Part shown: positions 521-57,716 of the stretch, piece after piece
Numbering within the stretch: the stretch's first letter is position 1
How the letters are laid out: each line of letters begins with the position of its first letter
Program-made: the position numbers and the translations under genes
Assembly (NCBI GenBank): GCA_015680905.1
Contig: CM027379.1
Span: 29,840,501 to 29,904,500, forward strand
Length of the DNA: 64,000 nt
Reading direction: 5' to 3'
Source of the DNA: Coptis chinensis
Taxonomy: Eukaryota > Streptophyta > Magnoliopsida > Ranunculales > Ranunculaceae
The notes under the pieces: model-generated
What the model was told of the DNA's origin: nothing
Seen by the model: the letters and a program-made list of their open reading frames with translations, nothing else
Database searches by the model: none

Positions 521-824
521 GACCCTATCTATGAGGACTGACCTTTGTCATTGGTATACTTCCTTTCATTTCCATATATTGGTAAGTGCACCATTCAGGT
601 AACCGGGCCCTCCTTATGGAGTGTGTGGTTGTAAGTACCGGATCCTAAGTCCACGTTAAACATAATTCACGTTTTCCACTCTTGCATGTTTTCTCGGATT
701 TTGAGTTATGTTTTTCTATGGTATGAATTATGCATTTATTGCTTTATTGTTTTTCTTATATTAAATCTTATTCATAAAAATAAAAATTGTTAAAATCATA
801 AAAATAGTAATTTAGGAAGTTTCG
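521..824 (+). other. Athila 3' non-coding sequence
   Basis: This AT-rich stretch follows the pol stop and ends at the solo LTR insertion. No gene is visible. It reads on to 4320 when the solo LTR is removed, because the bases flanking the insertion are near-identical (TTTCG and TATCG). Confidence 0.5.
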
Positions 825-1322
825 TGTCACACCCCGAATTTCGACAGAATTCGGAAAAACAACATTTGTTCCCGACTTTTCGATCTTCGAGGTGTGACGC
901 ACTCTCAACTCTCAAAACCCATAAACAGTTTAAATATGCGGATAATTAAAAACCAATAAAAATTTCGATTAAACAAAAGTCCTCTTCATTTCAAAAATTC
1001 ACAAATAAGATTAGGTTACAAATCTCTTTTCAATAACTCTTTATTTAAAATTACAAATGAAAATACAAAAAACATTGTCTAGACTGAGAATCTGTATCAC
1101 CTTAAGGGAAAACAAACATATCATGAAATGCAACACTAACGCAAACCACAAGCAGCAACCAGCTTTCTTCAACACTAAACCTGTCAAGACTTATCAACTA
1201 TGTTCATTTAATGAACACACCCGAGAAGCAAACATGCAAATAGGGTCAGCATTATAAACAATGCTAGTGTGAGTAGCCCTAAAATATAAATTATACTTAT
1301 ACCTATATATACACAAATCCCT

Positions 1323-1499
1323 AAGGCATTTAGTTCCTCTGCCGAGGCGCCTTAACTTCCAACCACTAATACGACATCCTTAAGTACAATAATTAAAGGC
1401 GTGTAGTTCCCACCGGCTTGGTAGCCTTAACTTCCTACTAACCACACAACTAACCATACACATAATAAAAAGGCATTTAGTTCCTCCACGAGGCGCCTT
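1323..1499 (-). repeat. Three hairpins with AAGGC/GCCTT stems and TAGTTCC in the loop
   Basis: Hairpins at 1323-1353, 1396-1438 and 1470-1499 each have the stem AAGGC...GCCTT and carry TAGTTCC shortly after the left arm. The same TAGTTCC motif sits in hairpin-like contexts in family A LTRs and internal regions. Confidence 0.5.
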
Positions 1500-1564
1500 A
1501 GGTTCTAACTAACTAATAACCAGCCAAACATATTCTATACTTACCTCATTCCATGCTCAATTAT

Positions 1565-1607
1565 AGAGTGGGTCATCTCTGCAAAAGTAATTAGTTTGAC
1601 CCACCCT
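1565..1607 (-). promoter_or_regulatory. Conserved RNA-type hairpin in the solo LTR
   Basis: The arms 1565-1574 and 1598-1607 pair over 10 positions (one G-U type pair in the sense RNA) around a 23-nt loop. The position and flanking CTGCAAAA match the hairpin at 7386-7431 in family A, while the arm sequences differ in a compensating way. The function is unknown. Confidence 0.55.
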
Positions 1608-1790
1608 TCTGCAAAACCATATACAATCATCTATCTAAAGATATATCATTAACCAACATATTACCATAATTATATTAATTAAGGCTTTCTTTGCGTGCCC
1701 CTAAAATCACGTCGTATCTATGTCTTACCTAGTTTCCCTGACTACCACAATCGCTTCCCAATGCCGAACATGTATATCCACATGCCTCCC

Positions 1791-1931
1791 CTTACATAAT
1801 GAACCACTCCGTGCGTAACTACCACGAAAATGGATGCCGCGACACCGTAACCCTCACACGAAAAGCCATTATGTAAGTATCGCCACACTATTCGCATAAA
1901 ATATCATGGCGTCTCGTTCTATTTTGCGAAT
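1791..1931 (-). repeat. Cluster of inverted repeats in the solo LTR
   Basis: CTTACATAATG (1791-1801) is the exact reverse complement of 1867-1877. The 1890-1903 segment pairs with 1920-1931 (one extra base). Together they would fold into adjacent hairpins in the predicted leader part of the LTR transcript. Confidence 0.5.
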
Positions 1932-2843
1932 GGAATAATCAAGCCACTATTCCGCTACGATTGCCCAACACATGGGTCAATCAACATCTCATATATATAC
2001 ACCCTATACAGGGGCCAATCATATCACATACGCCCACACAAGGCAAATCACATGAGTTGTGGTAGCTAGGTTCTAGGATTTTCGTTACGTAATTTATTCA
2101 GGTGTCATACATTTATATCTCAGAATAATTCTTATTCTATCTCATGCCAGTATACTTAATTGTACTGAAACTCAACGTTTCTCGTTATAATACAATCCAC
2201 ATTATCACGTGCCAATACTATTCATTGCACGATATCCAAGTATCTCTATATCAAATCTCAAAACTTATTATTTCACGTGCCAATCATATATTGCACTACA
2301 CCATATGGAATATCTCAAGCCTTCTTACATACTACAATTCATTTTAGTAGCAACTCATAATTGCAATCAATCATGTAACGTATTCATTCCATAAATTTAT
2401 GTGAACTCAATTCACCATCAAAGGCACGCATTATTTCCATTGGTGCACAATATAAGTAGTATATAAATAATCAAAATATAAGACCATTCCACCAAATATC
2501 AAAATGAAACGACTTTAAAAGAAGGAACAACTCAAGTCCAAATATCACGCATAATTATTCAAGTCCAAATCACAAGTCAAGTCAAACTGATCAACCGTCA
2601 AAAAGCCCAAAACTAAAGTCCATGAATCTAAGTCCGTATGTAACTTAATACTCAGAAAAACATATATATCTAAGTCTTATTATCCGAATTCCCTTCTTGT
2701 TACGTGCCAATATTTATATGTTTTACACACTACTTACATCAAATCTTAATTAGATAATGACAAACAAGGTTATACAATATCGACAATCTTTTATTACTAC
2801 ATTTGTCCATATTCTTAAACATGTGAAAAAAAAACTGGAAAAA

Positions 2844-2942
2844 GTCAACATTCCACAGTCAACGGTCAAAGTCAAAGTCAACACGTCATTGTCAAAGTTA
2901 ACACATCATGGTTGAAGTCAAATTGTCATTGTCAAAGTCAAA
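2844..2942 (-). promoter_or_regulatory. W-box core cluster in solo LTR U3
   Basis: Nine GTCAA motifs occur in 99 bp. On the sense (minus) strand each is TTGAC, the core bound by WRKY transcription factors. Equivalent clusters lie at the same place in the family A LTRs. Confidence 0.55.
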
Positions 2943-4319
2943 CTGTCGTTTCTATGTTCAACAGGTTCATGGTCATAGCCATGGTTCATGGCTAAGGTCA
3001 AGGTGTATGGCTCATGGGCTCATGACTAAGGAAACGGTTCGGACCCAACTAGCTGAGCCCAAACCCCAAACCTTAGAACCCAAAAGTCTACATGTTGAAA
3101 GACTCATTTGGATCTCTATTAAGTCCTATGGACTGGCCCCGAACAATATTAGAAACTGACCCAAAAACTTTAAACTGAACTGGTCCACAAATTAAAACAA
3201 AACCGGGCCTAATAAAAACAAATGAAACTGGCCCATAGAGCTTAATCTAGAAATGGCCCAACAACTTAAAACAAAACCGGGCCCAATCAAAAATAGAAAT
3301 TTCGGCCCAACAACTAATAAGCTAAGGCCCAAAAACCGAAACCGGCCCAAGGCCCAAATTCGTCATCTTCTCCTCCAAAGACCACCCACCAAATCGGCCA
3401 CCACCAGCCACCACTAATCTCCACTCGTCCAAACCAAATCGAAAATACTCAGGGGAAAAACCCCCACTACTTTAACAAAAGCGAAATCCCTAACTCCTTC
3501 AATCAATACTCTTCCTCAAATCTAGATTTGAACCATCCGCCATTAATGGCTTCTTCAAGCTTTGAACAGCCCCCCACCACTCTACAACACTCAATCAAAC
3601 ATCCACAACCAACAATTCATCAAACCAACAAATACCAAACAAGCAAAACTACAAAAGTTCCAACCACAGTATGACAGGGGACGCCATTAACGATTTCTCC
3701 AAGCTTCACTACCCCGACATCACTCAATCACCCAAAACCAAACATCAACCCAACGTCATTCAATCCTAGCCTCATCAGTAAGGGTTCACTACCCCAACAG
3801 AGTTCAAAATAAACATAGAAGACGATTTCTTGCTATTGGGCTTTATCTGCCATTAACGCCCATAAAGCTTCGACAGTTCAAAATAAAGTTTCCGATATTT
3901 AACGAAGTTTAATAATACGACAGGCACGACGTCAAATAAAACAAGATAATAAGCAATATCAATAGGCAGAAATCTTAGACAGTATACACCGATACACGAA
4001 AAACTATAAATTCGGTGAAATAGCAAAAATAGCTACTCACCTTAATGAAAAACACCACGAATCCCTCTTAGTTTGAGTTGTCTCGCTCCAACGCTCGAGA
4101 AAACAAGCCGCCTCCATTTTTATTATTTTCTTTTTTTTTCTAAGAACCCTATTCTCTAGAAAAGTGTGATTATATTCTTGGGTTTGAAACCCAAGCCCAA
4201 CACAGACTCGGGCCCAGAAATTAGGCCCACATATCCCAAATCCAATCCAGTGAATTTTAAATAAATAAATAACTTAATTAATAAATAGATAAATATGTAT
4301 TTTAAATACGGGCATTACA

Positions 4320-4912: not shown

Positions 4913-5890
4913 CCCGCCACCATCAGTACGGTTTCACAACCAAAAATCAAACTTCCTCGCTGACACCATTAAGCCACTAAGCGCTGCTCAGAGCGTGAAC
5001 AGAGCTACAACAGTTCAAAACAACAACTATAATAAAAGGCAGTACAATTCATGGAGCTCGCGCCTCCATTAACAGAGCTCCGAAGCTTGAATTGTTCCAA
5101 CAGTTTTAATGAAGGGCATCAACAGTTCAACAGTTAACTTCAAATCCGAAATTTCAATAAAGTTTAATAAAACAGATGACTCGAATTCCAATACCACGGA
5201 TAATGAACAGTATCAATACACAGAAAACCATAAATTCGGTGAAATAGCAAAATAGCTACTCACCTTAACTAACAGCTCGACGAATTTTCCTAGCCGAATC
5301 GTCAGTGCTCCACCTCTCCAAAGAAACCGGCTTCTTTCTCATCCATTTTTATATTTTATTATCTTCAAAACCCTATTCTCTAGAACAATGTGTTTATATA
5401 TACTTGGGTCCAAACCCAAGCCCAACACCGACTTGGGCCCAAAACCAAGCCCACGTATCCCGAGTCCAATCCGACGAATTTTTAAAATAAACAATTAAAT
5501 TAATTAATTAAATAGAAAAATACGTATATAAAAAAACACGGGGTGTTATAATATACACACCTTAAAAGGATCTCGTCCCGAGATTCAAGGTAGAGTGTAG
5601 ATTAACCAAACAAACAGTACGTCAACCAATTAAAACGAGACATACGTGTATACGCAAGTATACACACCTTAAAAGGAATACACATATACGATATCATATA
5701 GATAGACATACTAATATGCAAAACACATACTTTGAAAGTGTGTCTATATACATATTGAACCCAAGAAATACGTATATACGCTAGCATACACAACTCAAAC
5801 GAATAAACGTAATTAATTTCTTCAATTACCAACACTTAATTAAAATCATTCTTTCACAGTTCAACAGATTCATATTTTCCGAGTTAAATC

Positions 5891-5949: not shown

Positions 5950-6066
5950 TTACACATATATCGACATTTCTCTCAGTGTCTCACAAACACCACATGTTTG
6001 AAAAAAAATAAAACGTATAGACTGATTCATATTATCAACGGCCTACACTATGTCCACCATCACATA

Positions 6067-6313
6067 GGATCAAACACCTACAATGTGATGCATGCATACT
6101 AGCTCACACACCAACGATATGCAAGTATACACTGGTTCACACACCAACGATGCATACTAACTCTCTACCATCACATAGGATCAAACACCAACGATGTGTG
6201 GTATGCACACTGGATCACACTCCAACGATGTACATGTACACACTGGATCAAACTCCAACGATGCATACAGAGAGATGTTATGTATATTGGATCACACACC
6301 AACGATATACATA
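6067..6313 (-). repeat. Degenerate minisatellite, about 33-45 bp unit, seven copies
   Basis: Units start with GGATCA or a variant, followed by CACACCAACGATG-type sequence and an ATGCATAC-like tail. Open frames across it are only by-products of the repeat. The same array occurs at 43082-43325 in the related element. Confidence 0.7.
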
Positions 6314-6695: not shown

Positions 6696-7385
6696 TGTCA
6701 CAGCCCGATTTTCTAAACAATTAAAAATAATGAATATTTGAAATATAAATATCTCAAACATCATTATGTTCAATTGTCTAAAAACCCAGGCTATGACGGG
6801 GTGATACAACACATGTCAAAACCTAAAACCCACATCACAACAGGATCAACTTAACAACAAAAATCTCCAAATTCCTCAACTATCACTTTATTAAAAACTT
6901 TCTTCTATCCCAATACAAACATAAACAACTTTAAGAATAACAGGTCTTCAACATTGTATTTCATGTCATATGAAAATGTAACCTACGTTATTACATCTTT
7001 CCAAAAGATCATACCTAATAAACTAAACTCCCAGACTGCTCCAGGCGAGAATCCCAATCACACGCCATTCCATCTTTGCCTTCCCACCTATGTTCCCAAG
7101 AACACACCCACGCTTGCCAAAACAAAGCAAACATGGGTCGACAAAATTGAATTTGCTGGTATGAGTAGACTAACTACATATAAACATTATCATACTTTAA
7201 TTATCCAAACAACACTTTAACTCTATCATAACCTAATCATTCTCGGCTTGGAAGGCGAGTAGTTCCGGTCATCTCAACCGGCATAGTTCTTCCCAAGCAA
7301 AACTTATATTATCTTAACTCATTCAAATCACTCGTTTTAATATCTAAATAATTGAATTACACTTACCGATATCCGCCGCTGTATA

Positions 7386-7431
7386 AGGGTAGGACCGCGT
7401 CCCTGCACAAAATATTATTAAGTCCTACCCT
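7386..7431 (-). promoter_or_regulatory. Perfect 10-bp-stem hairpin in the LTR
   Basis: AGGGTAGGAC (7386-7395) pairs exactly with GTCCTACCCT (7422-7431) around a 26-nt loop. The same hairpin is at 40389-40434 and 45372-45417. A covarying version is in the solo LTR at 1565-1607. Confidence 0.7.
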
Positions 7432-7587
7432 CCTGCAAAAGAAAGTTAGAACTTCTATATAACATATGTACATATCCTATATGTATTCAAAAGTAAGCCC
7501 AAACACACTTGCATCATCAAATAAATTTCTCTTATCACTTAATCAATTACTTTTCTTATACACATATTTCACAACCTATGTACCTTA

Positions 7588-7809
7588 GGTCATTCCCGCC
7601 ACATTCAAGGAATACCCAACCTTACATTCCTGTACACTCAAGGAATACAACTAACCCGCAAGGCGAATACCTTAGTTCCTCTCTAGGGTAGTCCAAACAA
7701 TCTGGTCATTCATGGCACATTCAATGAATACCGGGTCATTCATGGCACATTCAATGAATACCCTATATAACGCTTAACGGGCCATTTATGGCACATTCAA
7801 TAAATGCCC
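7588..7809 (-). repeat. Array of hairpins with a constant loop
   Basis: Units at 7588-7616, 7704-7732, 7734-7762 and 7779-7809 each form a stem around a loop. In the last three the loop GGCACATTCA is identical while the stem changes on both sides (GGTCATTCAT with ATGAATACC, versus GGGCCATTTAT with ATAAATGCCC). Equivalent arrays are at 40593-40699 and 45576-45682. Confidence 0.65.
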
Positions 7810-8060
7810 ACCTAACATATGACATCATCAGTCATAAAACTCAAATCCAAAACTTGAGTCGTGGAGTTCTAAAAGAGTGCGGTAAATTTATTTATGCATT
7901 ATTGAACTTTATTTTATATATCATTTAAGATAACGAATGAGTATCTTGATTCCTGTATTTTTTATTTACGCGTTATTAATTTCAGGGATGTCTTAGTGTC
8001 ATAACGTTGCATATCATAAAATACTGCAAAATCACATAGTAGTTAATACACATACACACG

Positions 8061-8246
8061 TATATATAGAGGTCTTAGCCTAAAGTCAAGCATGCTAATA
8101 GCCCTAGACCTATCCAAATAACCCAAATCATAATCCGAGTTAAAAGTCAACTCTGGTCAACGGTCAAAGTCAACTCTGGTCAAAGTCAACCCTAGTCAAA
8201 GTCAACACATCATGGTCAACGTCAAAATGTCATTGTCAAAGTCAAA
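8061..8246 (-). promoter_or_regulatory. Putative LTR promoter: 12 W-box cores and TATA
   Basis: Twelve GTCAA motifs at 8146-8246 read as TTGAC on the sense strand. About 80 bases downstream in sense is TATATATA (8061-8068). Transcription would start near 8030 on the minus strand. WRKY factors bind TTGAC cores, so regulation by stress or defence is inferred. Confidence 0.5.
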
Positions 8247-9855
8247 CTGTCATTTCCATGTTCGACAAGTTTGGGGTCATAGCCATGGTTCATGGCTAAG
8301 GTCAATGTGCATGGCTCAATGGGCTCATGGTTAAGGTCATAGTCCGGACCCAACTGGCCAAGCCCAAACCTTAGAACCCGAAAGTCTAAAACCAACTTAT
8401 TAATTCTACCCGACCCAATTGGATCGATTTAAGTCCTAAGGACTGGTCCCAAGCTATATTAGAACCTGGCCCAAAAACGTTAAGTGGTTCGGTCCGAAAA
8501 CTTTAAATTAAACTGGTCCACAAATTAAAACAAAACCGGGCCCAATCAAAACTTAATTAAACTGATCCAAAAAAATACAAATGGGTTCGGCCCAAAATTA
8601 ACTGAAACCGGCCCAAGACAAAATAAAAGAAAAATAAAATGGCCCAAAGAACTTAAACATTTCGGCCTGGCCCAACAGCCACCTAAAGCCCTAAAACTAA
8701 AACCGGCCCAAGTAGCTAATTGGTTAGGCCCAAGGCCCAACCACAGCTACAGTGTCCTCTTCTCCAGCTCCATCAGCCGCTCCTCTCCACCGTCAGCCAC
8801 CCCTAACCACCACTCGACCACCTCCATCATCCTAGCGGTTTTGACCCTCCTACCAAACCAAACAACATTTATAAAACCAAAAACTCTAATCCTTTAATCT
8901 AGATTTACCCAAAACTAGATCTGTAAAGAATTTTGGACCGCCATTAATGGCTGCTCCAAGCTCTGACAGCCCCCATCAACAGCCCTCACTCACTACCCCC
9001 ATTCCTCAAACAAACAACCCACGACACCAACAAAACAGTTCACAACAACAGTTCACATAAAAATCAAAACCTCAGTATCGCAGTAATGGTGTTCGGCGCC
9101 ATTGACGCCTGTTCAAGGCTCCCAACAGCCCAACCACCGTACTCCAACCCCCAACAATCCATCAAACCCACTCATCAGTCCACAACCAAACACCAACAAC
9201 AAAAACGAGTTCAACCCGCCACCATCAGTACGGTTTCACAACCAAAAACTGGGCGCTTCCTCGCGACACCATTAGCGCCACTAGCGCCTGTTCAGAGCGT
9301 GAACAGAGCTACAACAGTTCAAAACAACAACTATAATAAAAGGCAGTACAGTTCATGGAGCTCGCGCCTCCATTAACAGAGCTCCGAAGCTTGAACTGTT
9401 CCAACAGTTTTAATGAAGGGCATCAACAGTTCAACAGTTAACTTCAAATCCGAAATTTCAATAAAGTTTAATAAAACAGATGACTCGAATTCCAATACCA
9501 CGGATAATGAACAGTATCAATACACAGAAAACCATAAATTCGGTGAAATAGCAAAATAGCTACTCACCTTAACTAACAGCTCGACGAATTTTCCTAGCCC
9601 GAATCGTCGTGCTCCACCTCTCCAAAGAAACCGGCTTCTTTCTCTTCCATTTTTATATTTTTATTATCTTCAAAACCCTATTCTCTAGAACAATGTGTTT
9701 ATATACTTGGGTCCGAAACCCAAGCCCAACACCGACTTCGGGCCCAAAACCAAGCCCACGTATCCCGAGTCCAATCCGACGAATTTTTAAAATAAACAAT
9801 TAAATTAATTAATTAAATAGAAAAATACGTATATAAAAAAACACGGGGTGTTATA

Positions 9856-10279
9856 AGGAGGATGACTCGGAGGATGAGGAGGACACGACATGTTTTGATG
9901 CTGATGCCTTGGAGAGGTGTAGGTCGGATGCAGAACGTATGGCTGTGATTCATCGTGGCATGCGTTCTCTCAATACTATTTGTGAAGACCTCCGAACTCG
10001 GCAGGCTACCATACATCATAACTTTGAGACTCGTGCCTAGCGCGAGGATGAGCGGTGGGAACAGACGACGGCAGAGATGGAAGCTCAGCGCAAGTTCCGA
10101 GACGATATGCTTGCACGCTTTCCACCCCAGGGGGGTGCTTCTTCTGAGGAGCAGTCTGTGAGGCACGAGCGTCGTTACCGTAGGACTGATGGCTCTAGCC
10201 CATCAGGAGCCCAGGAGACATCACCTTCCCATGTCCCTTCCACTACCAGCAGCGAGTGGTTTAGGAATATTATGAGTTG
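9856..10279 (+). pseudogene. Retrotransposon ORF fragment, acidic/coiled-coil C-terminus
   Basis: The frame is open from the insertion edge and begins acidic (EEDDSEDEEDTTCFDADALE). One in-frame TAG follows, then a charged helical stretch (QRKFRDDMLARF) and a low-complexity serine/threonine tail ending FRNIMS and a stop. I do not recognise a domain. It looks like the C-terminal part of an Athila-type accessory ORF whose N-terminal part was cut off by the family A insertion. It could instead belong to a separate retrotransposon fragment. Confidence 0.45.
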
Positions 10280-19044: not shown

Positions 19045-19240
19045 TACTTATTTGTTGAAAAAGTTTTATCAATAGATGATTTTCCTTACTTAAGTTCTTA
19101 TTCTTATCATTATTACTGTGCATACACCCCTTATTTGTATCAATACACAGCAGTCTCTTAACTTCAAAACAAAACTAACAACTCGCTCACTAGAGCAGAA
19201 CGCTTGCTAGAGTAGAACATTCTCTAGAGCAACACTCTCA
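19045..19240 (+). other. 3' untranslated start of Tat element A
   Basis: This short non-coding stretch between the integrase stop and the tandem repeat is followed by AGAGCAGAAC-type repeats that grade into the array. No gene is seen. Confidence 0.4.
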
Positions 19241-19560
19241 CTCGAGCTTTAATGCTACATAGCATAACTACTTCTCACTAGTTGAGGACCTACACTCCTA
19301 GGGTCAACTTAGTGCAAAACGCTCACTCGAGCTCTAATGCTACATAGCATAACTACTTCTCACTAGTTGAGGACCTACACTTCTAGGGCCAACTTAGTGC
19401 AGAATGCTCTCTAGAGCAAAACGCTTACTCGAGCTTTAATGCTATAACTACTTCTCACTAGTTGAGGACCTACACTTCTAAGGTCAACTTAGTGCAGAAC
19501 GCTCTCCAAAGCAATACGCTCACCCGAGCTCAAATGCTACTTAGCACTTAGATGACACGA
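19241..19560 (+). repeat. Tandem repeat, four units of 85-102 bp
   Basis: Units start at CTCGAGCTTTAATGCTA (19241), 19326, 19428 and 19523 (CCCGAGCTCAAATGC). Each contains CTTCTCACTAGTTGAGGACC and TTAGTGCA. It lies between pol and the antisense ORF. Hypervariable tandem repeats at this place are known in Tat/Ogre elements and can seed satellite DNA. Confidence 0.75.
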
Positions 19561-23802: not shown

Positions 23803-26411
23803 CAGTGGCGGAGCCATGTATAGGCTAGGTAGGGCATAGGCCCCCCCTGAATTTGTGTAAAAAAAATACTAGTACTAAACAAAACTCCCACATACACAGT
23901 CCACAATTGAACCCAAAAATAAAAATAAAACTAATTGCTTAGCAGCTTAGGCCCGCCCACATGTTTCTATTTTTGATTATTGGGTGAAGGGTTTTTTTTA
24001 GGTTTGGGATTGTTGTTGTTGTTGTTGGATCAAATGGGTCGGTTGGTTAGTTCGGGTTTGGCGAAGAATGGTCTTTGGGAATTATTCTCATATGCTCCTG
24101 TGATTATCCTACTCTCATTATTTGTTTATATTAACTGCTAAGTCTACTAGTCGTCTTGGCTTCGCTTGGGCAGTTGGGCGCAACCCTTCTCTGCATCTCC
24201 TAACTCCTAAGTCCTATCTCTCCCGTACCATTGAAGGAATAACAACTATGGATAAATTCCTTATAAAGAAGTCAAATCCTAATCAATTACCGACGACATC
24301 GACGGTATTAGAAAACACTCCCCTCAATCAAGTCATTAAAGAGCAACCTGCCTTAAAGCGAAGTCGTGTAGAAGTTGATCATACAAATCTTCCTTCGGAT
24401 CTTGGGTTACGGCATCGAATAACAGATTATCCTCATAATAAGCAAGAATTTGTGCAACGAGCATATCCTTTTCAGCCTAAAGAGCACACATACCCAATTA
24501 CACATACGAACAATAAAAACTGCAAGTTCTGTGCTACTTGGTTTCGTGAAGGTGATTGGGTAGAGTACATCATACATGAGGATGCAGTTTTTTGCTTGCA
24601 TTGTTATCTATTCATACTAGACCATAGGGAGCAAGGAGGTGGTGATTCTTTTGTGATTAAGGGTTATAGAAATTGGAAAGATATACAAGCATTGTAGAAA
24701 CATGTTGGGGGACCTAATAGTGCTCACAATGTTGCATATAGGAAAGGGCAAGCTTTACTAAATCAGAAACAAGAAATTCGAACTTTTATTGATAGGCAAT
24801 CAAAGAAAGCTCGATGGGACTACCGAGTTCATTTGCAAGTAGTGATTGATTGTTGTCGATTTATTCTATGACAAGGATTAGCATTCAGAGGCCATGACAA
24901 GAAACCTACCTCAAGTAATCCTGGAATTTTTTTTGGCCTCTTAAACTACACAGCCAATCACAATGATGCCATTAAGACTGCTACACGATATTCTCCTAAG
25001 AATGTCACCTTGACTTCTCCTGATATTCAGAAAGATATTGTCAACTCCACTGCAGTGGAAACCTCAAATGCCATCCTTAAAAAGCTTGGAGATTCTTTTT
25101 TTGTTGTGTTAGTTGATGAATCTCGAGACATATCAATTAAAGAACAAATGGTTGTTGTTTTGCACTTTGTAGATACTCATGGATGCTTGGTTGAACATTT
25201 GTTAGGAATTGTTCATGTTCAAGAAACTAGTGTCATATCTCTTAAAGTGGCTCTTGAATCACTTTTTTGCAAGCATGGACTGTGTATATCAAGATTGTGT
25301 GGTCAAGGTTATGACGGAGCTAGTAATATGCGAGGTGAGTTCAACGGTCTCAAAGCCCTCATCTTGAAGGATAATGGATATGCTTTCTATGTTCATTATT
25401 TCTCCCATCAACTTCAATTAGCACTAGTTGTTGTTGCTAAAAATAACACCCACATTGTTTTGTTCTTTAACTTGGTTTCTAGTGCTGTGAATACTTGTGC
25501 AGCTTCTTGTAAATGTCGAGAAATTCTTACGGAAAGCCACAATAACAGAGTTCTTGAAGAAGTAGAATCTGGTGAACTTCCAAGTGGACAGGGTCTCAAT
25601 CAAGAGATTAGTTTGGAACGGCCTGGTGACACACACTGGGGTTCGCATTATGCTACACTTGTCCGCTTTCTTGTCATGTTTCCTTTAGTTATCGAAGTTC
25701 TTGAGGTTGTGGTAGAAGATGGTCTAAATTCAGAACAAAGAGGAGAAACATCCGCTTTGTTAGGCTCTTTGCAACATTTTGATTCATTTTCATCTTATAC
25801 TTAATGAAAAAGATACTGGGAATTACTCATGATTTATCAAAAGCATTGCAAAGAAGTGATCAAGATATTTTCAATGCAATGGCACTAGTTAAAGTATCCA
25901 AGGAAAGACTATAAAGGATGAGAGATGATAAATGGGATATGCTTATGGCTGATGTATCTTCTTTTTCTGCTAAAAATATTATCTCCATACCTAACATGGA
26001 AGAAAAGTTTATAGCAAGGGGACGATCACGACGTAATGCTGAAGATATGACAAATCTTCATTATTATCGTGTGGATTTATTCTACAAATGTATAGACTGG
26101 CAGCTTCGTGAGTTAAATAGTCGATTTGACAAAGTGAATACAGAATTGCTTCTTTGTGTTGCTTGCTTAAATCCATGTGATTTCTTCCTTGCTTTTGATA
26201 AGAAGAGTTTAATACGTCTTGCTAAATTTTATCCTAATGATTTTTCACCTATTGATCTCATGACCTTCCAAGATCAGCTAGATAATTATGTTGTCGATGT
26301 GTGCTCCAACCATCTATTTTCACAGTTGAAAGGGATTATTGAACTTGTTAAGAAGATGGTAGAGACGAATAAAAATATTGTCTATCCACTAGTGTTCTTG
26401 TTGATGACATT

Positions 26412-26767
26412 TGTAGCGACCCAATTCATGAGGGCCGAGGGTCTGTCGGGTAAGGGAGCCGGGAAGAGGACGGGGTGTGGGATGACGGACAGGCTACTTA
26501 AGACGGTGGGCATGGAAGCCAAATATGGAGGTCGAGAACCGAGGACCGATAGTGGAGAGCCGCGGCTCGGAAGGCTAGCTGACATGGAATTGAACCATCT
26601 AGACACGTGCCTAGCAGGAGGAAGGGCGAAACCCTAACGCCGTACGGGAACTCAACACATGGCACTCCGAGACCGTGTAAGATGAGTGGGCCGGATGGAG
26701 GGGCCCGGGGGAGGAGGAGGGGATTATAAATAGAATAGTAGAGGAGGAGAAGAGATAGATCACAACA
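26412..26767 (+). mobile_element. 5' LTR of Tat element B
   Basis: It begins TGTAGCGACCC and ends ATCACAACA. TATAAATAG at 26725 is a clear TATA box about 40 bases before the LTR end, so the R-U5 part is short. It drives gag-pol transcription. Confidence 0.92.
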
Positions 26768-35172: not shown

Positions 35173-35705
35173 GGGAGGAAGCTAGGGAATATGAACGGTT
35201 TACAAAAAGAAATGCGAAAATTAAAGAGAGAAGAGTACCAACCTGGTGCACCAATCCAGCAGCAGAGGCAAACGTTCGAGCGGGCAAGGTGTGTAGAATG
35301 GAGGAGTAGGAGGAAAGTTAGAAGAAGGATGGAGTTGACTGTAAACAGGGGCGACAGTAGTGGGGAAGGAAAGTGGAAGGTTTGAAAATGGCGACTGGTA
35401 AGGAAGAAGTAGAAGGGTGAGAAAGGAATGAGAAGGAAAGAAGGGGTAAGTAGAAGTTGAAGCGTGGAGGGGGTAAAAGGGGAAAGAAATAGGATCGAAA
35501 ATCAAGAAACCGTCAGTTGAACCAGAGGAAAGGTGACACGTGGAGGGGCAAGAAACGAGGCGACACAAACCAAAACCAAGCACGCGGGGAACACGCAAGG
35601 CCAATAATAGAAAGGCGCGGCAAAGAGAGGTTACGGAAAAAGGCGGTGATTTGAGTTCTCGGGTCCACGAACATTCGAGAGGTTCGCGAACTCGAGAGGG
35701 GGCAT
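35173..35705 (+). other. Region between antisense ORF and 3' LTR, with polypurine tract
   Basis: G/A-rich and non-coding. CGAGAGGGGGCAT just before 35706 is the purine tract for plus-strand synthesis. The antisense ORF's promoter would lie here on the minus strand, but I see no convincing TATA box. Confidence 0.55.
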
Positions 35706-36058
35706 TGTAGCGACCCAATTCATGAGGGCCGAGGGTCTGTCGGGTAAGGGAGCCGGGAAGAGGACGGGGTGTGGGATGACGGACAGGCTACTTAAGACGG
35801 TGGGCATGGAAGCCAAATATGGAGGTCGAGAACCGAGGACCGATAGTGGAGAGCCGCGGCTCGAAAGGCTAGCTGACATGGAATTGAACCATCTAGACAC
35901 GTGCCTAGCAGGAAGAAGGGCGAAACCCTAACGCCGTACGGGAACTCAACACATGGCACTCCAGAGACCGTAAGATGAGTGGACAGATGGAGGGCCCAGG
36001 AGGGAGGAGGGGGATTATAAATAGAATAGTAGAGGAGGAGAAGAGATAGGTCACAACA
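35706..36058 (+). mobile_element. 3' LTR of Tat element B
   Basis: It matches the 5' LTR over its full length (TGTAGCGACCC to GTCACAACA) with about a dozen differences, several clustered near 35960-36010. TATAAATA is at 36016. It is followed by the target duplication ACATT. Confidence 0.92.
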
Positions 36059-39720: not shown

Positions 39721-42303
39721 TGTCACAGCCCAAATGTCTAAACAATTACAAAGTCAATATTTGAAATATAAATATCTCAAACATTACTATGTTCAATTGT
39801 CTAAAACCCAGGCTATGACGGGGCTACAACACATGCCAAAACCTAAAACCCAAATCATAAAAGAATAAACCCATGAATTTCCACCATCACTTTATTAAGC
39901 TATCTTCCGTCCAAACAAAATATCAAACAAACTCTAAGAATAAAAGTCTTCAATATCTTATTCTCATGTCATGCTGAAAATGTAAACTACGTTATTACAT
40001 CCTTCCAATAAGAATCGGACCTAATAAAAGCACTAACGGACTGCTCCATGCAAGAATCCAAATCACACGCCGCGGTTCCACTGCCGTTCACCTATGTTTC
40101 CAAGAACACACCCACGTTGCCAAAACAAAGCAAACATGGGTCAGCAAAATGGAATTTGCTGGTATGAGTAAACTAACCACATAAAAACATTTCCAGTCTT
40201 TACTTATCAAACTAACACTTTAAATATATCATAACTTAATCATTCTCAGCCTGGAAGACAAGTAGTTCCGTCATTTCAACCGGCATAGTTTCTTCCCAAG
40301 CAAGACTTCTAATTTATTAACTCATTATAATGATTTATTTAAATAGCTAAGGAATTGAATTAAACTTACCGATAGCCACTGCTGTATAAGGGTAGGACCG
40401 CGTCCCTGAACAAAATATTATTAAGTCCTACCCTCTTGCAAAAGAAAGTTAGAAGTTTTATATAACATATGTAGATATCCTATAGGTATTCAAATGTAAG
40501 CCCAAACACACTCGCATAATCAAATCAATTTCTCTTATCAATTAATCAATTTCTTTTCTTATACACCCACTCTTTAGTAACTATGTACCTTAGGTCATTC
40601 TCGCCACATTCAATGAATACCCGGGTCATTCATGGCACATTCAATGAATACCCATTTATAACGCTAACGGGCCATTTATGGCACATTCAATAAATGCCCA
40701 CCTAATATATGACATCATCAGTCATAAAACTCATTTCCAAAACTTGAGACGTGGAGAGTTCTAAAAGGGTGTGGTAAATTATTTAAGCATTATTAAACTT
40801 TATTGCATATTTTATTTCAGAGAACGGAGGAGTATCTTGTTTCTTGTATTATTGTTTACGCGTTATTAATATATCGATGTCTAAATGTCATAGCGTCGTA
40901 TATCATAAAAGACTGAAATATCACATAGTAGTTAATACACGTACACACGATATATATATAAAAGTCTTAGCCTAAAGCCAAGCACGCTAATAGCCCTAGA
41001 CCTATCCTAATACACCAAATCATAATCCGAGTTAAAAGTCAAACTTGGTCGGCTAGTCAAAGTCAACTCTGGTCAACAGTCAAAGTCAACCTGCCAAGGG
41101 TCAACAACAGTCAACCAGCCAGTCAACCAGTCCCAAACTCCTCTAACCTAAAAGCCCAAAGACTAAGGCCCAAAGTTTAAACTTAAGCCCATAAGTGAAA
41201 TCTGAAATTTAAAACACTCAAGCCCAATACTGAGTTCGGCCCAAGCCCAACAAGGAACAATGAACAGGATCGCCTCTATCCCTTCTTCTTCCTCTACTGC
41301 GCACCTCCACCACCGATCAACCACCACAACCACCAACCTAACTCCACTACAAACCACACGGTTTCACTCCTCACAAAAACCCCAACCTTTCTATATAATA
41401 AAATCCCAATTCCCTCACCCTTCAAAAATCGCGGTAATGACGCCATTAATGGCGGTTCAAAGCTTCACAGCTCTCATATAACAATTCCACCACCACCAAT
41501 CAGTAATCAACCAACACAATCAACATAATAACAATTCACAATATTTTTTAGGATGATGTTTGTGCGAACCGCCACCATTAACACCTGTTCAAGCATTTTC
41601 CAAGCTTCAACAGCCCACCCAATTTCAATTCAATCGACAGCAACAAATCAAAGATATAACTTCATTAGGCAAAACAGTTTACACTTCGCAAAGCAATAAG
41701 TTTTGAGTCCATATAAGAACAATTAACTATATCATTCAATGGAAACTCGATTTCATTCCTGGTTAAACAAAAAGATAAATCTTCAACTTTCCATCGATAT
41801 CAGATGACGAGGTTACAGTATATATGTTCCTCTGCGTTAACAATCTTATGTATTTCTTTGTTTTATACCATTTAGTTCAAACAATCACACGCGTATACAA
41901 CCATATTTCTGACATTTACAATGGCGGAAAAAAGCGATGAATTCAAAGAAGAAATCAGTGTTTTAGAATTATTTTCTAAGTGTAACATTTTATATCGTTG
42001 AAAGTATCTACTCACCGATACAGAACTTATTTGCTCCTCCTGTTGTCAGCAAGATCTCCAGCAAGAAACTTCTCTCATTCCTCTCTGTGAAACTCTCTTT
42101 TATGTAAAACTCTCTGTGTTTTACCAACCCTATCTTTTTCTTCTCTGTTTTTAAAAACCCTCGAAATAGGGAAGAGGGTGTATCCTATAAACCCACGTCT
42201 CCTATTTCCACTAACACTTATCTTATTTTATTTTATCTATTATCCATTATTATTAGTATTAGTATTATCCTAGGAAAAATAAAAGAAAAGGCGGGGTGGT
42301 ATA
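39721..42303 (-). mobile_element. 3' LTR (sense) of the gag-only element
   Basis: Its plus-strand start TGTCACAGCCC is the sense-strand end (GGGCTGTGACA). Its sense-strand start is a mutated TATACCACCCC. It holds the hairpin at 40389-40434, a hairpin array at 40593-40699, TATA at 40950-40962 and the W-box cluster at 41038-41126 (nine cores). Confidence 0.85.
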
Positions 42304-42782
42304 ATATACACACCTTAAAAGGATCTCGTCCCAAGATTCAAAGTAGAGTGTAGAGTAACCAAACAAACAGTATGTCAAACAATAAATCTTTATAGAGTAT
42401 AAAGTTAACATATTACATGCCGACAACTAAACTTTAAGTAATAATGTAGAACATGTCAGCAGGGAGATTAAATTAAACACATCATTTACAGCTTGCACCC
42501 AATGATCATAGTAAACCAATATCATAAATAAGACATAATGTATACTAAGTATACACACCTTAAAAAGAATACACATATACAATATCATATAGATAGGCAT
42601 ACTAATACGCCGTCACATACTTTGAAAGTGTGTCCATATAATATAGAACCCAATAAACACGTATATACGCTTAGTATACACCACTCAAAAAGAATATAAT
42701 AATTAGTTTCTTCCATTGCCAACACTTAATTAGAATCATTCTTTCTCGGTTCAACAAATTCATATTCTTCGAGTTAAATCAT
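42304..42782 (-). other. 3' internal end of gag-only element, before the LTR
   Basis: Non-coding. The plus-strand block ATATACACACC then TTAAAAGGATCTCGTC is, in sense, the conserved GACGAGATCCTTTTAAGG pre-LTR signature of many plant gypsy elements. It recurs at 5551. Confidence 0.6.
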
Positions 42783-42839: not shown

Positions 42840-43081
42840 TTCCCAACTAATCCAAGACGTTTAACAATAAATATACCTATAATAATTTTCTTTTCAACGA
42901 ACTTCCCTGTCAAAACTATTCGGTTAAAAACTCATATGTTTCATCCACCATCTTGGTGTTTACAAATATATCAACATTTCTCTCAGTGTCTCACAAACAC
43001 CTCATGTTCGAAAATAAAAATTTTACATTATATAGGCTGATTCATATCATCAATGACCTATACTATGTCCACTATCACATA

Positions 43082-43325
43082 GGATCAAACACCTACAATG
43101 TGATGCATGCACATTGGCTCACACACCAATGATGTGCAAGTATACACTAGTTCACACACCAACGATGCATACTAGCTCTCTACCATCACATAGGATCAAA
43201 CACCAACGATGTGTGGTATGCGCACTGGATCACACTCTAACGATGTACATGTGCACACTGGATCAAACTCCAACGATGCATACAAAGAGATGTTATATAT
43301 ATTGGATCACACACCAACGATATAC
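43082..43325 (-). repeat. Minisatellite in the gag-only element
   Basis: About seven GGATCA...CCAACGATG units of 33-45 bp, matching the array at 6067-6313 unit for unit. It is therefore an old internal feature of the family. Confidence 0.7.
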
Positions 43326-43640: not shown

Positions 43641-44579
43641 TTAACCAGTGCAGTTCTTAACGTAGTGTCCCAACTGTCCACATTTATAACATTTGCCTAC
43701 TAGTTCATTTGGTTTAGAACATCTTCGAATAGTATGACCAACTTCCCCATAGTTCAAACAATTACCATCAAATTTCTTTAGCGAAGTACTAATGTCCTTA
43801 TTCACATGCTTACTTGTTTGCCTATTATATGGGTGATGCCGACTTTTTCTCTGCCCTTGACGTGGTTGACTAGAAATAAGGTGTAAGCTGACTTGTTTTG
43901 GGGCATTCTCTTTAAACTTCTCATCTTTGGGTTTATTATCCAATTGTTCATATCTTAATGCCAAATCTAACACGCAATCGAAAGTTTATTAATCAAAGGG
44001 TATCAAATAACTCAATAGATATGGCTCTAGTCCACGGATGAACTTCTGGTTCTTCTTTACTGGGGTATCCACTAGATAAGGAGCATACCTCGATAGTTCA
44101 TTGAACTTAGTCACGTACTTCGTAACAGTTTTCCCTCCTTGGGTCAAATTAAAGAATTTCTCAGTTAATTGCTCCTTAACAGCATTAGGAACAAACCTTC
44201 CCTCAAATCTTACCTGGAAATCCTCCCAAATCATAGTTCCCACATCCACATTATCCTTGATAGACCTCCACCAAAATAAAGCTGACCCCTCCAAGTGGTG
44301 AGAAGTCAACTCCTGCTTCTGCACCTCAGTGAGTTACATCTTAGCAAACACGGACTCACACATAGTAACCCATTTCTCAGCATCAATGGCCCCTTTCTCT
44401 CCCTTGAACTTCTGGCCTCCTAAAGTTGCAAAATCCTTGTTTCTCCTAGCAAAAGAATCCCCTAGATTATCATGTTGACCCCTCTGAATAGTTTGCACCA
44501 ACTAAGTTAATATTGCTCCCAAATCAGCAAGTATGGTATTACTTCCAGTACCAGTAATGTCATTATCATCTCCATCCAT
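43641..44579 (-). pseudogene. Gag of the large-LTR element, defective
   Basis: Starts at ATG 44579 on the minus strand (MDGDDNDITGTGSN). The central gag domain reads HHLEGSALFWWRSIKDN, IWEDFQVRFEGRFVP and KYVTKFNELSRYAPY. The C-terminus carries one good zinc knuckle (CYKCGQLGHYVKNC, the CCHC pattern) and one broken copy in which the second cysteine is tyrosine (CLNYGEVGHTIRRC). In-frame stops lie near 44502 and 44338, and the frame is disrupted near 43988. Gag would package the element RNA. No protease or RT follows. Confidence 0.85.
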
Positions 44580-44688: not shown

Positions 44689-44707
44689 CTAAGCTCCGAT
44701 ACCAAAA
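44689..44707 (-). promoter_or_regulatory. Primer binding site of the gag-only element
   Basis: The minus strand reads TTTTGGTATCGGAGCTTA immediately after the LTR end, the initiator-Met tRNA type with one mismatch. It is identical to the site at 6678-6695. Confidence 0.8.
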
Positions 44708-45371
44708 TGTCACAAATTTTCTAAACAATTACAAAGTCAATATTTGAAATATAAATATCTCAAACATTACTATGTTCAATTGTCTAAAACCTAGGCTATG
44801 ACGGGGCTACAACACATGCCAAAACCTAAAACCCAAATCATAAAAGAATAAACCCAAGAATTTCCACCATCACTTTATTAAGCTATCTTCCGTCCAAACA
44901 AAACATCAAACAAACTCTAAGAATAAAAGTCTTCAATATCTTATTCTCATGTCATGCTGAAAATGTAAACTACGTTATTACATCCTTCCAATAAGAATCG
45001 GACCTAATAAAAGCACTAACGGACTGCTCCAGGCAAAAATCCAAATCACACGCCGCGGTTCCACTGCCGTCCACCTATGTTTCCAAGAACACACCCACGT
45101 TGCCAAAACAAAGCAAACATGGGTCAGTAAAATAGAATTTGCTGGTATGAGTAGACTAACCACATAAAAACATTTCCAGTCTTTACTTATCAAACTAACA
45201 CTTTAAATATATCATAACTTAATCATTCTCAGCCTGGAAGACAAGTAGTTCCGTCATTTCAACCGGCATAGTTTCTTCCCAAGTAAGACTTCCATTTTAT
45301 TAACTCATTATAATGATTTGTTTAAATAGCTAAGGAATTGAATTAAACTTACCGATAGCTACTGCTGTATA

Positions 45372-45417
45372 AGGGTAGGACCGCGTCCCTGCACAAAATA
45401 TTATTAAGTCCTACCCT
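45372..45417 (-). promoter_or_regulatory. Conserved hairpin, third family A copy
   Basis: AGGGTAGGAC (45372-45381) pairs with GTCCTACCCT (45408-45417), identical stem to 7386-7431 and 40389-40434. It lies in the predicted transcribed leader, about 0.5 kb downstream of the TATA box in sense. Confidence 0.65.
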
Positions 45418-45932
45418 CCTGCAAAAGAAAGTTAGAAGTTTTATATAACATATGTAGATATCCTATAGGTATTCAAATGTAAGCCCAAACACACTCGCAT
45501 AATCAAATCAATTTCTCTTATCAATTAATCAATTTCTTTTCTTATACACCCACCATTTAGTAACTATGTATCTTAGGTCATTCTCGCCATATTCAATAAA
45601 TACCCGGATCATTCATGGCACATTCAATGAATACCCATTTATAACGCTAACGGGCCATTTATGACACATTCCATAAATGCCCACCTAACATATGACATCA
45701 TCAGTCATAAAACTCATTTCCAAAACTTGAGACGTGGAGAGTTCTAAAAGGGTGTGGTAAATTGTTTACGCATTATTAAACTTTATTGCATATTTTATTT
45801 CAAAGAACGGAGGAGTATCTTGTTTCTTATATTATTATTTACGCGTTATTAATATATCGATGTCTAAGTGTCATAGCGTCGTATATCATAAAAGACTGAA
45901 ATATCACATAGTAGTTAATACACGTACACACG

Positions 45933-46088
45933 CATATATATATAAAAGTCTTAGCCTAAAGCCAAGCACGCTAATAGCCCTAGACCTATCCTAATACACC
46001 AAATCATAATCCGAGTTAAAAGTCAAACTTGGTCGGCTAGTCAAAGTCAACTCTGGTCAACAGTCAAAGTCAACCTGCCAAGGGTCAA
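45933..46088 (-). promoter_or_regulatory. Putative promoter of the gag-only element
   Basis: Seven TTGAC (W-box core) motifs on the sense strand at 46022-46088 lie just upstream of a TATATATA box at 45933-45946. This is the same arrangement as in the other LTR copies. It would drive minus-strand transcription toward the primer site and gag. Confidence 0.5.
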
Positions 46089-47274
46089 CAGCAATCAACC
46101 AGTCCCAAACTCCTCTAACCCAAAAGCCCAAAGACTAAGGCCCAAAGTCTAAACTTAAGCCCATAAGTGAAATCTGAAATTTAAAACACTCAACCCCAAT
46201 ACTGAGTTCGGCCCAAGCCCAATAAGGAACAATGAACAGGATCGTCTCCCCTTCTTCTTCCTCTCCTGCACACCTCCACCACCGATCAACCACCACAACC
46301 CCCAACCTAACTCCACTACAAACCCCACGGTTTCACTCATCACAAAAACCCCAACCTTTCTATATAATAAAATCCCAATTCCCTCGCCCTTCAAAAATCG
46401 TGGTATTGACGCCATTAATGGCGGTTCAAAGCTTCACAGCTCTCATATAACAATTCCACCACCACCAATCGGTAATCAACCAACACAATCAACATAATAA
46501 CAGTTCACAATATTTTTAGGATGATGTTTGTGCGAGCCATACCATGAACACCTGTTCAAGCATTTTCCAAGCTTCAACAGCCCACCCAATTTCAATTCAA
46601 TCGACAACAACAAATCAAAGATATAACTTCATCAGGCAAAACAGTTTACACTCGTAGCAAGCAATAAGTTTTGAGTCCATATAAGAACAATTAACTATAT
46701 CATTCAATGGAAACTCGATTTCATTCCTGGTTAAACAAAAAGATAAATCTTCAACTTTCCATTAATATCAGATGACGAGGTTACAGTATATATGTTCCTC
46801 TGCGTTAACAATCTTATGTATTTCTTTGTTTTATACCACTTAGTTCAAACAATCACACGCGTATACAACCATATTTCTAACATTTACAGTCGACAGAAAA
46901 ACGATGAATTCAGCAGTAAATCAGTGTTTTATAATTATTTTCAAAGTGTAACATTTTATATCATTGAAAGTATCTACTCACCGATACAGAACTTATTTGC
47001 TCCTCCTGTTGTCAGCAAGATCTCCAGCAAGAAACTTCTCTCATTCCTCTCTGTGAAACTCTCTTTTCTGTAAAACTCTCTGTGTTTTACCAACCCTATC
47101 TTTTTCTTCTCTGTTTTTAAAAACCCTCGAAATAGGGAAGAGAGTTTATCCTATAAACCCACGTCTCCTATTTCCACTAACACTTATCCTATTTTATTTT
47201 ATCTATTATCCATTATTATTAGTATTAGTATTATACTAGGAAAAATAAAAGAAAAGACGGGGTGTTATAACATG

Positions 47275-48116
47275 CATTCCTCAAGTTTCAACCAGACACA
47301 TTGTCTAGGGGCTAGACTAACATAGTTTACTTGGATTCCAAGCCTTACCATTAACACTCTAATCTGCCCAACTTCTTAACAATCGATAGTTGGCCCTGCA
47401 AATAGGTTGTCATATCATTCACTACTCTGCTCCTCACCACAGACAGTCGATAGTTCGCTTGAACTTTGAGTTGTAAAGCTGCAGAACGCTTCTTTTGAAC
47501 CAAACTCAATGCTTCTTTTCAACCAAACCCATCCAAGCCCAAAGTTTAATATAGGCCTGGGCTTGAATATCTGTTAGTTAGTGGGCCATTTTTTCGTTAA
47601 TGAGTTACTTAGTGGGTCAACAAGGCACGAACGTAAGTCATCTGGTACTAAAACTGCCATTTGAATTCATAATTTTCCTCACCAAATCGGTGTACACATG
47701 CTACATTGCTACATGATGTTCCAGTCCAAAGCCCATTTAAAGGCAGTCCCTAGATTTTGTTTAACTAAAAAAGGTGAAAAAAAGAGATAGAGCATCAGAC
47801 CATGAGTTACTAAATTCTAGGTGTCGTTTCACTAAAACGCAAAGCAAACTAAACACAAGAACCACGTTGACGCTTGTCCACTGTTCCAAATCTTATGTGT
47901 TAGATTCCTCAAAGAAAAAAAGAGTGTCATAGTTTACTCCATGGCCATTAATTAATACCGAGAAACACGCAACAAAAAAAGCTAGCTAAGTTGAACTTAG
48001 CTGTCTCTCTTTGTCTCCTTTTGTACTTGCCCAAACACACTTCACTTCATTCTCCACTTGTCGGTTTTGGATATTTACTAGATCCAAGAGAGAGAGAGAG
48101 AGAGAGATCTGGGAAT
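47275..48116. other. Degraded RNase H flank and upstream region of the MSR-like gene
   Basis: The first 200-250 bases continue the minus-strand RNase H-related sequence but contain stops. The rest is ordinary AT-rich upstream DNA. An (AG)n run at about 48090-48106 lies in the probable 5' leader of the gene starting at 48117. No clear TATA box is seen. Confidence 0.45.
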
Positions 48117-57407: not shown

Positions 57408-57716
57408 CAATCTATATACACCACAACCTGAAGCAAATCTTCCTTCTTGGCCTGGTTATTGAGATACAGAAATGGACCTTAAAGTAGGTTTCGTGAGCAT
57501 GTAAATGTTGAAACTGGCTACTTGTTCACTTCCTTCCCTCTAGGATCAAGTGTCATATAAAATTGCTGTCTTCATGTATTATCTTTCTGTCTTCATCGTA
57601 GTAATCAGTTCACATGTACGTATACTCGATATTTCAAAGCGAAAAGAAATGAGAAATATTGTGAATAGAAAGGCGGGCAAAAGTGGTAAACTATTTTTAG
57701 CTTCGAAAAACCCGCC
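57408..57716 (+). other. Spacer between MSR-like gene and CMO gene
   Basis: Only 309 bases separate the two genes. They must hold the 3' end of one and the promoter or leader of the next. No clear TATA box is visible. Confidence 0.5.

Follow-up and report, generated by a model that had tools for sequence, protein, structure and literature searches.

The 64,000-nt stretch of the Coptis chinensis genome analysed here (the window; host genome 935.6 Mb) carries a hairpin at positions 7386–7431, within a long terminal repeat (LTR), that returns in other LTRs with a partly different stem, and it raises the question of what a retrotransposon would do with such a fold at this place. The answer that we favour, at a probability of about one half, is that the hairpin forms a structured cassette exon of the leader, which may tune splicing against the production of full-length RNA. 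The initial annotation had described three hairpins in LTRs of one family (A) and a fourth in a related LTR (family B), and direct reading of the sequence confirmed all four where it had placed them, with the minus strand as the sense strand:

7386..7431, minus strand: hairpin of family A, element 2 (copy A1, 3' LTR-type), with a 10-bp stem and a 26-nt loop
40389..40434, minus strand: hairpin of family A, element 1, 3' LTR in sense (copy A2), from sequence and covariance model
45372..45417, minus strand: hairpin of family A, element 1, 5' LTR in sense (copy A3), from sequence and covariance model
1565..1607, minus strand: hairpin of the family B LTR, with a 10-bp stem that includes one G-U and a 23-nt loop

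The paired changes that it had reported between the two stems were also found, since two pairs are doubly changed from A to B (pair 6 from A-T to G-C and pair 9 from A-T to T-A) and a third becomes a wobble (pair 3, G-C to G-T), with 10 of 10 pairs retained. Its further statement, that every copy has TTTTGCAG 5' of the stem and a loop that contains TTTTG(TG)CAG, held for all copies except the one at 40389, where TTTTGCAAG and TTTTGTTCAG stand in place of the usual motifs. A covariance model built from seq­uences of the hairpin (7 sequences, with 9 pairs because its alignment shifts one base of the family B 3' arm) scored the four hairpins of the window at 62–78 bits, and the next matches, at 10–15 bits, were the antisense of the same sites. 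No match to Rfam was obtained in the window at gathering scores.

The A-type LTRs that hold the copies at 7386 and 45372 could be aligned over 1527 columns, and their longest stretch of identity, 74 nt, takes in the whole hairpin, the runner-up being 44 nt. Across the whole B LTR, the B hairpin exon was the best local match to the A exon region, with a score of 23, whereas none of 300 dinucleotide shuffles scored above their maximum of 20. The similarity of the hairpin between LTRs exceeds chance. The check that the initial annotation had itself set, whether the A and B hairpins occupy homologous columns of a full LTR alignment, went partly against it: a global MAFFT alignment placed them at columns 2548 and 3055, because their surroundings are only about 40% identical, and outside the exon such an alignment of A and B LTRs failed as a proof of homology. 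We infer the homology of the two hairpins from the local match, the same order of signals and a third family described below. The folding energy of the hairpin was mildly low (z of −1.2 to −2.3) and unremarkable by itself; in the B copy of the window the minimum-energy sense fold differs from the hairpin, which is the centroid only, and the commoner form of family B does fold into it.

The host elements have paired LTRs, a primer-binding-site-like sequence, a target-site repeat and gag, as LTR retrotransposons do. The parts recognised in the window are the following:

39721..42318, minus strand: LTR of element 1, 3' in sense, 95.7% identical to 44708–47284 by self-comparison
44708..47284, minus strand: LTR of element 1, 5' in sense, by self-comparison
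44693..44707, minus strand: primer-binding-site-like TTTTGGTATCGGAGC of element 1, directly past the LTR end, from sequence
43644..44501, minus strand: decayed gag of element 1 with several stops (Pfam Retrotrans_gag, 9.3e-23; zinc knuckle, 2.4e-8)
6696..9856, minus strand: LTR of element 2 (family A) that holds the 7386 hairpin, by self-comparison and borders
about 815..4319, minus strand: family B LTR, covered piecewise over its full length by the solo LTR L061

The primer-binding-like TTTTGGTATCGGAGC is presumably of the tRNA-iMet type, and TGGTATCAGAGC stands at the corresponding site in four retrieved copies (L003, L011, L024 and L039). The partner LTR of element 2 was seen only at 4913–5551, and the family B LTR at 815..4319 had no partner LTR in the window. 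L061, a second B copy that was retrieved whole, is a solo LTR with the 5-bp end repeat ACTGG. Inspection by eye found RNase H/integrase-like frames in L011; L062, a B copy that has a primer site, was set aside, as its flank, also judged by eye, is not its own pol but belongs to another, Athila-like element. The interiors of both A elements contain partial direct repeats of about 145–180 nt (6015–6306 and 43031–43321).

What the initial annotation had missed is that the TTTTGCAG motifs resemble splice acceptors and that a donor-like GTAAG lies 3' of the stem. In sense, TTTTGCAG is followed by the first stem arm, the loop with TTTTG(TG)CAG, the second arm, about 18–20 nt in A and B, and G/GTAAGT. 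Both acceptors, 30 nt apart, and the donor are present in families A, B and C, so that the GT-AG signals of an exon are complete in each, and the hairpin probably fills a putative non-coding exon of 64–72 nt in the LTR leader (exon 2; 66 nt in A, 64 nt in B and 72 nt in C), an exon use that we infer. From the second acceptor, the exon would have a short form of 36, 34 and 42 nt, respectively. In the window, these signals are located as follows:

7367..7432, minus strand: putative exon 2 of copy A1, 66 nt, from the first AG to GTAAGT
7433..7440, minus strand: acceptor 1, TTTTGCAG, of A1, the best-scoring acceptor of the LTR
7403..7412, minus strand: acceptor 2, TTTTGTGCAG, in the A1 loop, 30 nt after acceptor 1, the second-best acceptor of the LTR
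7361..7366, minus strand: donor 2, GTAAGT, of A1, by splice scoring
40370..40435, minus strand: putative exon 2 of copy A2, with both acceptors altered (TTTTGCAAG, TTTTGTTCAG), from sequence
45353..45418, minus strand: putative exon 2 of copy A3, 66 nt, by splice scoring
1545..1608, minus strand: putative exon 2 of family B, 64 nt, by splice scoring
1609..1616, minus strand: acceptor 1, TTTTGCAG, of family B, by splice scoring
1579..1586, minus strand: acceptor 2, TTTTGCAG, in the family B loop, by splice scoring
1539..1544, minus strand: donor 2, GTAAGT, of family B, the best-scoring donor of the LTR

Splice sites were scored with a plant splice matrix. In A1, A3 and the B copy of the window, the best two acceptors of the whole LTR were the two hairpin acceptors (13.3 and 12.0 in A1, with the next at 8.7; 13.3 and 12.0 in A3, next 9.0; 10.1 and 9.3 in the B copy, next 8.3). 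Acceptor 1 is mutated in L061, and there acceptor 2 is the best at 9.1. Donor 2 was the top donor in both B LTRs (11.2), and in A1 it scored 7.6, below two other donors (9.5 and 8.9). In a simple text check of 30 loci of each family, acceptor 1 had CAG in 26 loci of A and 25 of B, acceptor 2 had it in 26 of A and 27 of B, and GGTAAG was present in all 30 of A and 24 of B. Inspection by eye placed TCTAAC, which we take to be a branch-site-like motif, 13 nt upstream of the first AG in families A and C, and no CTAAC was seen at the branch-site place in B. Conservation profiles along the A and B loci were left out of the evidence, as the loci had been selected by similarity in the exon region.

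A scan of 573,524 strand-bases for an acceptor, a 10-bp stem and a donor gave 30 places, all of them known A or B exons, under a strict rule that misses about half of the known copies. Candidate hairpin exons with other stems (no G at +4 and +5) were rejected, as there were 34 matches as compared with 24 for the reversed pattern and none was a hairpin family. A small repeat of the form TTTTGCAGGACCCTGTCTATGAGGACTGACC..GGTAAGT, with 6–7 genome copies (e.g. G000:C4:49516282-49516357), is exon-like, with no hairpin seen in it.

The third family came from 19 LTR interiors that had been picked for differing LTR starts and scanned with the hairpin model, which matched L095 (A-like), L097 and L101 (B) and L104, which was new. 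L104 led to family C, with 1258 first-look candidates and 40 scored at 95–100%; its layout, with small variations in the 18 of 20 retrieved copies that were readable, is TCTAACTCTGTTTTGCAG, then GAGGGTAGGATCTATTAATCTTTTCTGCAG, then GGACGTAAATATCCTACCCT.. AAAG/GTAAGG. The commonest stems are AGGGTAGGAC/GTCCTACCCT in A, AGGGTGGGTC/GACCCACTCT in B and AGGGTAGGAT/ATCCTACCCT in C, and all ten pairs form in each. Three of the ten are doubly changed between families, pairs 6 and 9 in B and pair 10 in C (T-A in place of the C-G of A and B), as in a covarying RNA; pair 3 varies by wobble (G-U) only, and none is broken in these commonest forms. In a count over copies, 37 of 37 were matched in family A (30 with all ten pairs), 33 of 33 in family B (26 with all ten; 32 are distinct, L032 and L061 being the same LTR) and 19 of 21 in family C (16 with all ten; L119 and L124 unmatched). 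Most copies have a loop of 23, 26 or 29 nt, whose 3' part varies as the stem is kept, and the common form of A, B and C has the self-complementary TGCA in the loop (CTGCAG in C).

Changes per site were fewer in arms than in loops in all three families (0.012 vs 0.020 in A, 0.012 vs 0.035 in B and 0.008 vs 0.020 in C). Within families we counted 9 stem changes in A, 8 in B and 3 in C, and 19 of these 20 break a pair, indicating that single copies decay freely and that the covariation is one between source lineages. In an alignment of 38 distinct A and B rows that had been fitted to the structure, 97.1% of the cells of its nine pairs were paired as compared with 35–61% in slid structures, and the covariation score was 0.270 as compared with 0.139 in shuffles (0 of 500 as high); the two pairs changed on both sides in these rows were not above shuffles. 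By a simple count, the 3' changes would keep all pairs by chance in 42 of 3240 cases for A to B and in 7 of 30 for A to C, odds that are suggestive, not overwhelming. The idea that paired change signals selection on RNA structure gained from the third family, with its change at another pair, and is limited by the small number of events (two double changes and one wobble from A to B, and one double change from A to C); we consider it likely that the RNA fold was under selection in the source lineages.

The exon could also be real and its stem not selected, the conserved acceptors and donor dragging the sequence along and the complementarity being inherited. The uncompensated changes within families would agree with this, as would the modest folding energy and a covariation that amounts to three double changes between families. 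However, the B and C arms have changed on both sides at pairs 6, 9 and 10 and all ten pairs survived, and the 3' part of the loop and the tail are not conserved, unlike the pairing of the arms, which leaves this explanation improbable.

A candidate donor upstream of the exon and a candidate acceptor ahead of gag were found. As the initial annotation had proposed, the place of the hairpin within the LTR appears to be the transcribed leader. Donor 1, GTGAGTAG, lies 279–303 nt into the LTR in A1, A3, the B copy of the window and L061, and at about 270–365 nt in retrieved copies:

9560..9567, minus strand: donor 1, GTGAGTAG, of A1, 289 nt into the LTR, by splice scoring and conservation
46974..46981, minus strand: donor 1, GTGAGTAG, of element 1, 303 nt into the LTR, by conservation
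4033..4040, minus strand: donor 1, GTGAGTAG, of family B, 279 nt into the LTR, by conservation

Among 18 LTRs, namely 14 of 20 retrieved stretches and four others, GTGAGT was present in 18 and GTGAGTAG in 17, with exon-side bases that differ between lineages. The other six stretches either stop before the donor-1 site (L067, L072 and L074) or are without the LTR start (L068, L069 and L082). An LTR start followed after 262–290 nt by GGTGAGTAG was found in 2005 genome copies, as compared with 1 for the reversed control. Besides GTGAGTAG, three copies (L079, L085 and L086) have another donor-like sequence, GTAAGTAG, at about 120 nt from the LTR start. In A1 and L061, a TATA-like box was seen at about 150 nt from the LTR start, with no match in A3 and the B copy of the window.

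In the three copies compared, an acceptor-like AG stands 3 nt ahead of the gag ATG (..CTGTAG in L023, ..CCGGTAG in L024 and ..TTTTAAG in element 1), although this acceptor is weak, with a score of 7.5 at best. Counted from an assumed start, the unspliced LTR leader contains 80 ATGs in A1, 59 in A3, 87 in the B copy of the window and 86 in L061, and exon 2 contains 0, 0, 3 and 2, respectively. Exon 1 of the same four LTRs, from the same assumed start, has exactly one ATG each, which opens a short upstream frame just before donor 1. The exact exon 1–exon 2 junction of A1 type was absent from 1237 genome sites with up to two mismatches allowed, and the spliced exon 2–gag junction was absent from the genome. 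The four best near-matches among those retrieved (L063–L066) were rejected as spliced retro-copies, as they retain intron sequence and have only the acceptors altered. The absence of spliced retro-copies is weak counter-evidence, because none would be expected if spliced RNA is not a template.

According to the reading that we favour, the hosts would be Ty3/gypsy LTR retrotransposons in which a short non-coding leader exon has the hairpin as its body. Transcription would start near the TATA-like box, at about 150 nt from the LTR start, exon 1 would end at GTGAGTAG, and intron 1, of about 1.6–2.5 kb, would end at either of the two acceptors 30 nt apart, one just 5' of the stem and one in the loop. 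Exon 2 would end at the GTAAG past the stem, and the remainder of the LTR would be removed, together with the primer-binding site, as a second intron that ends just before the gag start codon. Use of acceptor 1 would keep the whole hairpin in the mRNA, and use of the loop acceptor would lose the 5' arm and, with it, the fold. Splicing would shorten the leader to a few hundred bases, as compared with about 3 kb with dozens of ATGs, and since the spliced mRNA would be without the primer-binding site, unspliced RNA would have to be spared for copying. The fold may keep exon 2 weak or switchable, so that some RNA is spliced, with a short leader for gag translation, and some stays full length as the copying template. 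This role of the fold in the balance of splicing is a tentative proposal, with the odds slightly against it. A bolder version, in which the folded exon is an RNA switch whose acceptor choice keeps or destroys the hairpin and thereby sorts transcripts between translation and copying, seems to us doubtful; were it true, exon-deleted lineages would be natural knock-outs present in thousands of genomic copies.

Such lineages exist. Of the 19 diverse LTR interiors, 11 that are otherwise close to B were without the exon (L087–L094, L099, L102 and L103); these had themselves been picked by donor 1 and so keep donor 1. The exon was kept in five (L095, L097, L101, L104 and L100, the exon of the last lying just outside the retrieved stretch, at C1:9083001); its state was undecided in L096, L098 and L105. 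Six of the exon-less interiors join TTGTATATG directly to YTTGG and five have a larger cut from GGTAATATG, and both types have ATATG repeats at their ends, as expected for deletion between short repeats. The first scar was found in 522 genome copies (reversed control, 1), the B exon start in 1687 (control, 1) and the A exon start in 1237 (control, 0), with patterns that differ in strictness, so that the counts are not a census. Since the exon is common to A, B and C with unrelated flanks, loss is the simpler reading, and on the same ground an insertion of the exon into B was rejected. The exon thus appears to have been lost by at least two routes, and the LTR lineages concerned multiplied afterwards, which makes the exon optional for multiplication, not essential.

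The main rival to a cassette exon is a hairpin for dimerisation or packaging, in which loop–loop pairing through TGCA (CTGCAG in C) joins two genomic RNAs, as in retroviral kissing loops, and the splice-like TTTTGCAG is secondary. The presence of TGCA in the loop of the common A, B and C forms would fit this, as would a stem that is kept as the 3' part of the loop varies in length, and the function would suit a leader signal. However, TGCAG is equally explained as an acceptor, and pairing between loops leaves the TTTTGCAG 30 nt upstream, the donor past the stem, donor 1 and the gag acceptor unexplained. In addition, 23–29 nt is long for a kissing loop, several copies have lost the loop TGCA (e.g. 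TTGTCAGG in L012 and L013), and exon-less lineages have multiplied. We give this explanation a small chance.

A hairpin of the 5' leader that controls translation, beside the single short upstream frame of exon 1, would agree with a position ahead of gag and with the one ATG found in each of the four exon 1 sequences, but it does not account for two acceptors 30 nt apart with one in the loop, and in unspliced RNA the 59–87 ATGs of the LTR would dominate, making it quite improbable. A DNA feature, either the inverted-repeat binding site of a dimeric protein, with co-changing half-sites, or a repeat subject to copy-correction between its arms, could likewise yield paired change, but the G-T fixed in family B forms a pair in the sense strand only and in each of the three families the arms lie between splice signals, so that we consider it very unlikely.

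A structured cassette exon has a counterpart among plant host genes. The plant TFIIIA gene contains one that mimics 5S rRNA and binds L5, and the exon described here would resemble it as a short plant exon whose fold matters, with no sequence relation seen in the Rfam comparison of the window at gathering scores. A leader exon or an acceptor hairpin in a plant LTR was not described among the open-access literature matches listed. A recent review (PMC12786077) describes plant LTR retrotransposons as generally without introns and names Ogre and EVADE as the exceptions. The Ogre intron and the spliced gag RNAs of EVADE and BARE resemble the proposal made here in that partial splicing gives two RNA pools (PMC12786077, PMC6317226; BARE paper, PMC3735527). 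Ogre has its intron within coding sequence, where it separates the GAG-PROT and RT ORFs, and the splicing of EVADE removes the protease domain (PMC12786077, PMC6317226); in contrast, two putative introns here would flank an exon inside the LTR leader, upstream of gag.

Rice Retrosat2, a Tekay/Del chromovirus, has, in passages of PMC3485330, an LTR of more than 3.2 kb with a short U3, a TATA near nucleotide 230 and an R of 2023 bp, and an excerpt of PMC6317226 tabulates the Tekay/Del clade. The families described here are like it in their long LTRs and Ty3/gypsy-type gag, a likeness of LTR layout and gag only, and unlike it in that those passages mention no intron, hairpin or leader exon (PMC3485330). 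The splice-donor hairpin of the HIV-1 leader (PMC4974535) likewise links a fold in a retroelement leader to a splice signal; there the hairpin holds the donor, whereas here the loop holds a second acceptor and the hairpin would be exonic throughout.

If our reading is true, these elements would add a third arrangement, different from those of Ogre and EVADE, in which the LTR itself holds a leader exon whose covarying hairpin overlaps two acceptors, and this would offer a direct handle on the balance between protein-making and template RNA in these elements. The families that carry the exon number over a thousand copies, and lineages with and without it occur naturally in the genome and can be compared.

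Several other features of the window were observed. Direct repeats at 26411–26767 and 35705–36058, 96% identical and 9.3 kb apart, surround plus-strand gypsy-like gag-pol frames and probably belong to another LTR element. Short tandem-like repeats of about 85–95 nt (82–85% identical) occupy 19208–19539, and adjacent direct copies of about 1.3 kb (83–88% identical) lie at 53146–54381 and 54432–55786. Finally, an open frame at 57690–58139, judged by eye, presumably resembles the start of a chloroplast choline monooxygenase-type gene.
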